NCBI GenBank assembly: GCA_022711595.1
Contig: JAKLET010000012.1
Span: forward strand, 1-64,000
Reading direction: 5' to 3'
Source of the DNA: Deltaproteobacteria bacterium
GTDB taxonomy: Bacteria > Desulfobacterota > Syntrophorhabdia > Syntrophorhabdales > Syntrophorhabdaceae
DNA: 64,000 nt
The translations under genes and the position numbers were made by a program. Positions 47,641 to 50,141 of the stretch are shown piece by piece (position 1 is the stretch's first letter; every line of letters starts with the position of its first letter). A model generated the notes under the pieces. It was not told where the DNA came from and searched no databases. It worked only from the letters and a program-made list of their open reading frames with translations.

Positions 47641-47860
47641 TAGGTTATAGGTTATAGGCCATGGGAAAGGAAAGAAAGTTATTCACATGGCCACTTTTTT
47701 TGTTTTTCCTATAACCCATTATCCATCACCCATCACCCATTACCCATCACCCATCACCCATCACCCATCACCCATCACCCATCACCCATCACCCATCACC
47801 CATCACCCATCACCCATCACCCATCACCCATCACCCATCACCCATCACCCATCACCTTTC
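47639..47860. repeat. Heptamer array (CCCATCA, about 19-20 copies) with inverted GGTTATA arm
   Basis: After the stop at 47640 come three TAGGTTA units (47641-47658). The segment 47708-47721 is complementary to 47639-47652 and leads into an almost pure array of the heptamer CCCATCA up to about 47856, ending eight bases before the rhodanese stop. The site is between convergent genes and can form a hairpin at its left end. The same GGTTATA and CCATCACC words reappear at 51399-51548. Confidence 0.9.
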
Positions 47861-47863
47861 TTG

Positions 47864-48760
47864 TTAAGGTTCTGTCGGTGCGTTGGGATCTTTCATCCAC
47901 TCTTCCGATGAACCGTCGTAGCTTTTCACGTTCTTGTAACCGAGTACGTCACTCATGATAAAGACCCAGACACTGCACAGTCTCCCCGTATCGCAGTACA
48001 CGATGATCTCTTTCGAGGTGTCGGTGCCGACTGCTTTCGCGGCAAGGTCGGAGAGTTCCTTCCTGTTCTTGAATGTTCCATCCTTATTGTATGCTGCCAT
48101 GGCGGGGAGATTGACCGCACTTTTTATTCTGCCCGCTTTTGCTACGAAATCAAGCTTCTGTTTGCCTTCGTAAAAATCGGCCCCCCTCGCATCGACAATG
48201 ACTGCCTTGCCGATGGCACCGATCACATGACCTTTTTTAGCGAATATCGCTTCGTTGACCTTTACCTGATATTTTGTCTGTTTCGGTTTCACCGCATCCG
48301 TGGAAAGGGGTTTTTTGTCGGATTTCCACTTATCGTAGCCTCCGTCCAGGACCGCCACATTCTCAATCCCGGCGTACCTGAGCGTCCACGCGACCCTGGT
48401 GATGCCGGAACGGTTCGGGGGAAGATCGGCATCGCCCACGACAACTACGAGGGAGTCAGGGCTTATACCGGCCGAACCTATTATGTCCGCGAGATCATCG
48501 AGGGGTGGAATTTCGTTTCTCAGGCCGGTCTTCATCACGGCCCAGGTATTGAAAAAGACATTGACGGCCCCGGGTATATGCCCGGTTTTATAGTCCTCGA
48601 CCTTCCTGATATCGACGATCACAAGTTTCGGGTTGTTCATGTTCTTTGCCAGCCAGTCGGTAGATACCACGGGCTCTATGTCCCTCGCGGCGGACACAAA
48701 AGGAATGAGCAGCATTGATATGAAAACAAAGATAGTACAGTATAAAACTCCTCTTTTCAT
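47864..48760 (-). CDS. Secreted two-domain rhodanese (sulfurtransferase family)
   Basis: 298 residues: signal peptide (VFISMLLIPFVSAARD), an N-terminal rhodanese domain (VDIRKVEDYKTGHIPGAVNV, then VLDGGYDKWK) and a C-terminal domain with the active-site loop YCDTGRLCSVWVF, containing a candidate catalytic cysteine, and GSSEEWMKDP. It may transfer or bind sulfur, or selenium, in the periplasm. It lies 12 bases downstream of the probable selenocysteine cytochrome gene and is surely co-transcribed with it. From memory, Geobacter outer-membrane conduit clusters also pair a rhodanese-like protein with a multihaem cytochrome; this was not checked. Confidence 0.87.
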   Translation of the reverse strand: MKRGVLYCTIFVFISMLLIPFVSAARDIEPVVSTDWLAKNMNNPKLVIVDIRKVEDYKTGHIPGAVNVFFNTWAVMKTGLRNEIPPLDDLADIIGSAGISPDSLVVVVGDADLPPNRSGITRVAWTLRYAGIENVAVLDGGYDKWKSDKKPLSTDAVKPKQTKYQVKVNEAIFAKKGHVIGAIGKAVIVDARGADFYEGKQKLDFVAKAGRIKSAVNLPAMAAYNKDGTFKNRKELSDLAAKAVGTDTSKEIIVYCDTGRLCSVWVFIMSDVLGYKNVKSYDGSSEEWMKDPNAPTEP

Positions 48761-48772
48761 CGGGTGCCTCCT

Positions 48773-50038
48773 TTATTTTATTGGCTTTGGAGTATAAAGC
48801 AAAAGCTCGTTCGCTTTTGAACCGTTCTTGAGAAGCTTGTCTTTGGTGAGAAAGTCCTGTTTTTCAACGTGGCAGATCTCGCAGGAGCGCGTCCGCTCGG
48901 TCCTTTTCTTGATATTGTGCGTCGCCGCGTCCCAGTAATTTGGGAGCGCGTCGTACTTTTCCATGGCAATCCCCGCAGCCTTAAAGGTGTTTCTGACAGT
49001 GGGGATGACCCGAAGGGTGGTGACGGTCTTTTTATCTCTCGGGCTCAGGCCCAGGATAAAGCCGGGCTTTGATGTGGCGCCTTTTCCCAGGTGGCAGTCA
49101 TAGCAGTTCCTGTAAGTGCCGCCGGAGTGACAGGCATAGCAGCTCACCCTGTTATTATGCTGTGCGTGGGAGGTTTTCGCCTTTTCCGTTTTTTCGTCGC
49201 CGATTTTATGGCATCCCGTGCACGACGGTTTTTCCTTCACCTCTTTCTTGGTTTTATATACCGATGCGGTACCGTGGAACTCAGCTTTTTTGTGACAGTC
49301 AAGGCAGGTCATGCCCTTCTGGTAATGGACGTCGGCCGAGCCGCCGTAATCACCGGTGTATTCGGGGTATACCCGGCCGCCGTGGCACATGGCGCAGGTC
49401 TTTCCGTCATCCTTTTTAACGAACTGGTGGTTCTTGATGAACCCCGTGGTGATGCCGCCTATCTTCGGAGACATAACGTGGCAGTCGCCGCAGGAGGCGT
49501 GGCAGCTTCTGCATGATTTCTGGAAGACCTTTTCGTCGAATATCTTCTGTTCCTTGGAGGAGAACCTGCCCGAGACGCCGTGCCTGAGGCCCGCGGTTGT
49601 GAAGTGCAGCGAATCTTTATATGTTTTTGCGACATTGTCGTGGCATTTTCCGCATATCTTGAGGTCTGACGAGGGCCTTTTCACGAACCCGGCATGGGCC
49701 TTTTCCCTTGATACGCCCTTTTCATCGCCTTTATGGCATGACGCGCACCCATCAACGAAATGCGGGTCTGCATCGATGAGTTTTTTATCCACAAGGAATG
49801 CCTTGTATTTGAGTTCCGCCGGCACCGACGGAGGGGCTCCGGCTCACCCCTCACCCTCTTCCATGATCACCCTGGGAGGTTTATGGAGGGATTTGAGCAG
49901 CTGGTCGTTGGTGTGGCATTTCACGCAGCTTGATTCAGCTCCGTATGTTAAAAACGGGAGCACAAAAGTGCCCGCAAGGAGAAAAATGCTGATCAATGGG
50001 AAAAAACTGGTATATCTTTCCAGGCGGGGATTTTTCAT
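48773..50038 (-). CDS. Eleven-haem c-type cytochrome with in-frame TGA, probable selenoprotein
   Basis: The reading frame from ATG 50038 (AAGGTG upstream) encodes a signal peptide (FPLISIFLLAGTFVLPFLTYG) and one CVKCH haem site, then meets TGA at 49846-49844 and continues in the same frame, with no indel, through ten further CxxCH sites (CASCH, CGKCH, CRSCH, CGDCH, CAMCH, CLDCH, CTGCH, CYACH, CYDCH, CEICH). Read through, it has 421 residues with position 65 as selenocysteine (EEGEG-U-AGAPPS). A SECIS-like hairpin follows the TGA. The protein is secreted and probably carries electrons in the periplasm or at the outer membrane. A rhodanese gene follows 12 bases downstream. Conventional callers would split it at 49844 and 49825. 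Confidence 0.85.
49816..49846 (-). promoter_or_regulatory. In-frame UGA with bacterial SECIS-like hairpin
   Basis: After the TGA (49846-49844) the mRNA reads CCTCCG-TCGGTGC-CGGCGG (49834-49816): a stem with one T-C mismatch and a seven-base loop containing GGU. The GGU is at nucleotides 18-20 after the UGA; in E. coli fdhF it is at 19-21. Loop GGU at that distance is the SelB-recognition hallmark. This is a hand-folded prediction. Confidence 0.65.
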
Positions 50039-50141
50039 GGACACCTTAAGAAAGGTTAGCGATGCGGGGAGATTTTGTCAAGAGCCGCCGGAAAGATCCA
50101 GAGTTGAAAGGCACGAGGCACGAAAAAAAACAAGATCAGGA

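Follow-up and report, generated by a model that had tools for sequence, protein, structure and literature searches.

A cytochrome frame broken by one TGA

The window, meaning the whole 64,000-nucleotide stretch of DNA analyzed here, carries on its reverse strand a gene for a multihaem c-type cytochrome, followed closely by a gene for a rhodanese (Table 1). An earlier reading made without database searches had described two open frames in the same phase, parted only by a TGA at 49846-49844, and translation of the window confirmed this exactly: a single frame of 421 codons runs from the ATG at 50038 to the TAA at 48773-48775 and is broken solely by that codon. The 421-residue read-through protein has 11 CxxCH motifs, of which only the first (C38) precedes the TGA. 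That reading had also placed the export signal and one CxxCH in the first half and ten CxxCH without a signal in the second, and the translation agrees; a second half made as a protein of its own would carry haem motifs but lack a signal for export. The interrupting codon falls at residue 65, in the context EEGEG-U-AGAPPSV.

Searching the genome for selA, selB, selC and selD, a check that the sequence-only reading had proposed, recovered all four genes over cut-off. Among relatives in the phylum, SelB was matched in 26 of 31 genomes that carry the TGA form, compared to 59 of 68 that do not; since nearly all of these relatives have SelB, its co-occurrence with the cytochrome is uninformative. 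The five TGA-carrying relatives with no SelB match at the strict threshold are draft genomes.

Table 1. Features of the cytochrome locus and selenocysteine genes elsewhere in the genome
Feature	Position	Strand	Details
11-haem c-type cytochrome gene	48773..50038	-	421 codons including in-frame TGA (Sec65), stop TAA; 94 distinct TGA-containing homologues
TGA codon, selenocysteine 65 (probable)	49844..49846	-	conserved column in homologues
SECIS-like hairpin UCCGUCG/CGGCGGA	49815..49832	-	nt 15 to 32 from U of UGA; loop GGU 49826-49824
Haem motif 1, C38-V-K-C-H42, 5' of Sec	49913..49927	-	invariant in 94 sequences
Haem motifs 2-11, C98 to H390, 3' of Sec	48869..49747	-	translation and alignment
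Signal sequence or anchor, about residues 1-33, periplasm export (predicted)	49940..50038	-	hydrophobic stretch in translation; model helix 12-30
AAGG, probable ribosome-binding site	50044..50047	-	5 nt before ATG; read from sequence
Periplasmic double-domain rhodanese	47864..48760	-	PF00581, E 5e-35; 12 nt 3' of cytochrome, same operon
selB	C40		381 bits, over cut-off
tRNA-Sec (selC)	C1		73.7 bits, over cut-off
selA	C12		573 bits, over cut-off
selD	G000:C23:186546-187457		374 bits, over cut-off; one in-frame TGA (probable Sec-SelD)

Conservation of the UGA and its hairpin

A protein scan of the genome's contigs and 99 relatives yielded 101 distinct homologues that span the Sec region. The Sec-spanning peptide used in the scan was back-translated as Cys and thus did not favor TGA. 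When these homologues were aligned at residue 65, as the sequence-only reading had advised, the codon was TGA in 94, Pro in five, Gln in one and Cys in one; every distinct sequence with the motif GEGUAGxPPxV has TGA (94/94). The carriers belong to Thermodesulfobacteriota (Syntrophaceae, Smithellaceae, Geobacteraceae and others), Spirochaetota and Bacillota and include a named isolate, Geobacter sp. OR-1 (L032). Across 395 genomes of the phylum, a profile search detected members in 48, nearly all with exactly one TGA, and distant subfamilies with the motifs GEGUGG...PL and AGUGVSAPQ also have the TGA. Nearly all members, distant subfamilies included, have Sec placed between haem 1 and haem 2, with the exception of a 17-haem fused form that has seven haems ahead of Sec. 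The CxxCH motifs 3' of the TGA are invariant or nearly so in the 94 sequences, which indicates that the segment after the TGA is translated and under selection.

This conservation bears on whether the UGA is a true stop, in which case the gene would be split, a pseudogene or the product of a sequencing error, with the second half encoding a separate protein. UGA does serve as an ordinary stop in this genome, as at the end of the gene upstream of the cytochrome (TGA 50144-50142), and the list of open reading frames has a GTG start after the in-frame TGA. Against this stand the sharing of the TGA by 94 distinct sequences and by distant subfamilies, the conservation of all ten downstream haem motifs throughout and the missing export signal of the second half. 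A true stop is thereby refuted in practice, and we give it next to no probability.

The stem-loop described by the sequence-only reading, with GGU in the loop 18-20 nt past the TGA, was found at that place and is conserved in homologues. The hairpin begins 11 nt after the UGA; counting the U of UGA as 1, its stem runs from pair 15-32 to pair 20-27. Loop positions 21-23 are mostly GGU, AGU or CGU, with U23 in 94/94 sequences and G22 in 90/94. At least five of the six pairs, in straight or one-bulge form, are formed in 83 of 88 distinct 36-mers, and pairing reaches 91% compared to 33-60% for slid versions of the hairpin. When codons were exchanged for synonymous ones drawn from the same gene, the hairpin usually became weaker: on average, a fraction of 0.085 of the recoded versions was at least as stable, compared to 0.49 in control windows from these genes. 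Of 87 Pro codons whose third base is the pairing partner of A32, 84 are CCT, against a background of 367 CCT among 1967 Pro codons (19%) in the same genes. In a distant clade the sequence is very different, yet an 8-bp hairpin with a GUU/GGU loop is present, with compensatory changes at pairs 15-29, 16-28, 17-27 and 18-26. Together, these comparisons indicate selection on the hairpin itself, over and above that on the protein sequence. In RNA folding, also proposed earlier, the hairpin forms in the window, but its energy in a single-sequence fold is unremarkable against dinucleotide shuffles (z = -0.08) and is not significant alone. No Rfam family matches the hairpin, and with both results the case for it rests on comparison across homologues. 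In a third subfamily with the motif AGUGVSAPQVRG (L217, L218, L219, L222 and L223), neither of the two pairing registers tried accommodates the hairpin.

The Pro and Gln members form one clade nested inside the Sec forms in a quick tree, with two Sec sequences as sisters, and Sec was therefore probably lost after a duplication. Both copies occur in the host genome, the Sec form in the window (C4) and a Pro paralogue at C26:31500-32705. Like the window gene, the paralogue is an 11-haem homologue followed by a rhodanese; unlike it, the paralogue has Pro in place of Sec (GAIGPAG) and, as in the other Pro paralogues, no hairpin, and what lies downstream is a short rhodanese and a multihaem/cytochrome b561-like membrane protein. 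The sequence-only reading had held that homologues lacking Cys or Sec at residue 65 would speak against selenocysteine. Such homologues formally exist in these paralogues, yet their clade probably derives from Sec ancestors. Cys occurs in a single, highly divergent member (L095, GGGGCGGS), which is also followed by a rhodanese. SelB over cut-off was not found in its genome, where the one match, of 205 bits and 403 aa, is EF-Tu sized.

The UGA could instead be read as a standard amino acid (Trp or Cys), with no selenium involved. However, the conserved hairpin with its GGU/GUU loop at SelB distance, the sel genes in the genome and the presence of Cys in a distant member whose genome has no SelB over cut-off all argue against it, and we consider it very improbable. 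Our findings strongly support the proposal that residue 65, between haem 1 and haem 2, is selenocysteine, on the strength of the TGA column, the hairpin, the sel genes and the Cys homologue. On this comparative evidence, the locus almost certainly holds one periplasmic 11-haem c-type cytochrome gene, whose UGA is read as Sec65 by means of SelA, SelB, SelC, SelD and the hairpin, and which leads a conserved gene pair completed by a periplasmic rhodanese.

Other cytochromes with probable selenocysteine

Selenocysteine in a multihaem cytochrome had been expected to be unusual. It is very probably present here, but precedents exist in ExtKL (found in 2007; PMC1914089; PMC6148476; PMC5877670) and in the Sec form of TIGR04315, which a selenoprotein inventory lists (PMC13188914). 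The Geobacter conduit cytochrome that the sequence-only reading had mentioned as possibly similar is ExtKL, but it belongs to another family and has its Sec elsewhere. ExtKL (NF040886, cyt_C_like_Sec) is likewise a periplasmic multihaem c-type cytochrome with an in-frame UGA and a rhodanese (ExtH) in its cluster. On the other hand, it has five haems and a predicted Sec after the last of them, in GHxIPDGUPTPNR, and only about 35 of its columns align with the window cytochrome. NF040886 has no match in the host genome, and this result, the short alignment and the different Sec position rule out homology to ExtKL. In the ExtKL family itself (L145-L158), which is over cut-off in 24 of 247 phylum genomes, a strict GHxIPDGUPTPNR-like Sec motif follows the fifth haem.

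The octahaem family TIGR04315 may share with the window cytochrome a haem core like that of octahaem tetrathionate reductase (OTR), and it likewise has a Sec/Cys column, which lies between haem 1 and haem 2 in that family. However, it has eight haems, and its Sec/Cys column aligns between haems 3 and 4 of the window cytochrome and not with Sec65. Members of the window cytochrome's family score far below its cut-off of 375 bits; seven of 58 give weak matches, the best at E 1.4e-4. Among phylum-wide members of TIGR04315 (L162, L165, L166, L170, L172, L175, L176 and L179), many have an in-frame TGA in (N/S)FU between haems 1 and 2, others have Cys there, and the Sec/Cys column is invariant in 19 sequences.

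No NCBIfam model is over cut-off for the Sec cytochrome family described here. The family is not recognizable in the available part of a 2026 inventory of 119 selenoprotein families (PMC13188914), where it may be listed under another name, and cytochromes are absent from the main text of deep-Sep. It is thus apparently uncatalogued as a selenoprotein family, with well over 100 distinct members in at least three phyla; a standard gene caller would split such genes into two truncated ones. When ExtKL and the Sec forms of the octahaem reductases are counted as well, Sec occupies several non-equivalent positions in multihaem cytochromes, in two cases close to a rhodanese gene, and the role of selenium beside haem thereby becomes a testable question.

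The rhodanese partner and a possible role in sulfur chemistry

The rhodanese of the window carries a signal sequence, and the catalytic loop of its second domain contains Cys256 (CDTGRLCS), a Cys that 71 of the 94 rhodaneses in the cluster share. In a tblastn search, 72 of the 90 loci with downstream DNA had a related rhodanese on the same strand no more than 1500 nt downstream, and cluster assignment adds three distant rhodanese loci. In the Smithella-type group the gene order is NrfD, an NrfC-like Fe-S protein, the 17-haem Sec cytochrome and the rhodanese; in seven sequences of this type (L063, L066, L072, L077, L078, L081 and L093), about six extra haem motifs are fused before haem 1 to give the 17-haem form.

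Residues 111-309 of the cytochrome align with the OTR family (hhalign 97.9% over 194 columns, a type of score that haem motifs inflate), while a control profile comparison to ExtKL covered 35 columns. The AlphaFold model, built without haem, has a pLDDT of 70, falling below 50 in the region of haems 4-7, with low confidence around Sec. Compared to the Shewanella octahaem enzyme (1sp3), it gave a Z of 7.3 over 249 residues, which alone could be chance. A Foldseek search with the model returned no match below E 1, and sequence matches in the PDB were at haem-motif level only. Nine non-motif His are invariant for the 11 haems, and Sec65, Lys241 and Met243 are further invariant ligand candidates.

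We tentatively propose that the periplasmic Sec cytochrome handles sulfane sulfur with the rhodanese, its haem chain moving electrons; the substrate is suggested by the neighboring genes only. We arrived at a sulfur role because of the rhodanese pair, the OTR-like core, the nine His for 11 haems, the NrfD/NrfC-like neighbors and the precedent of TsdA. In TsdA, a thiosulfate dehydrogenase/tetrathionate reductase, a haem-ligating Cys forms a covalent thiosulfonate and the haems carry electrons (PMC5146829). TsdA is dihaem and uses Cys rather than Sec, and it serves as a mechanistic model only, with no claim of homology to the window cytochrome. In the proposed mechanism, haems 3-9 would form the OTR-like core, and haems 1-2 with the Gly-rich Sec loop would be an N-terminal addition that may cover a haem lacking a conserved His ligand. 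Sulfane sulfur (persulfide, polysulfide, thiosulfate or S0) passed on or taken up by the rhodanese would be attacked or held by Sec65, and the selenosulfide formed at Sec65 would be reduced (or oxidized) by the haem chain, comparable to the haem-side Cys in TsdA. The NrfD and NrfC-like pair of some relatives would tie the system to the quinone pool.

Alternatively, Sec65 may be non-catalytic, either as a permanent axial haem ligand or as a redox switch adjusting a single haem's potential. Nine invariant non-motif His for 11 haems and an invariant Sec between haems 1 and 2 are consistent with this. However, the invariant Met243 and Lys241 are possible substitutes as ligands, the Pro/Gln paralogues retain their haem motifs without Sec and the Gly-rich Sec loop is predicted to be poorly ordered, and we find this reading rather unlikely. 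The same selenoprotein could also have a metal or an oxyanion of selenium or tellurium as its substrate, in line with the proposal for Geobacter ExtHIJKLMNOPQS, where the gene content is parallel, with a rhodanese (ExtH) and a Sec cytochrome (ExtKL) (PMC6148476, PMC5877670). The core also resembles ExtM and ExtN weakly at the HMM level, which points the same way, but the resemblance is far under cut-off and could be produced by haem motifs alone. Moreover, ExtKL is not homologous beyond one haem motif, and no porin-like gene recurs among the neighbor clusters, which leaves such a substrate doubtful.

Returning to sulfur, the position of the rhodanese next to the Sec cytochrome suggests a selenium-assisted sulfur reaction in anaerobic bacteria. 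More speculatively, the family might represent a novel type of selenium-dependent multihaem sulfur oxidoreductase from uncultured syntrophs and other anaerobes, in which Sec at a haem and a periplasmic rhodanese would shift sulfane sulfur between protein persulfide and a quinone-linked haem chain.

Two further features of the window were noted by eye. A tandem repeat coding for PITHHPS (47687-47911) overlaps the 3' end of the rhodanese gene, and in the segment 43002-45996 what resembles a 2-hydroxyacyl-CoA dehydratase/benzoyl-CoA reductase-type subunit precedes two related activator-ATPase-like genes.
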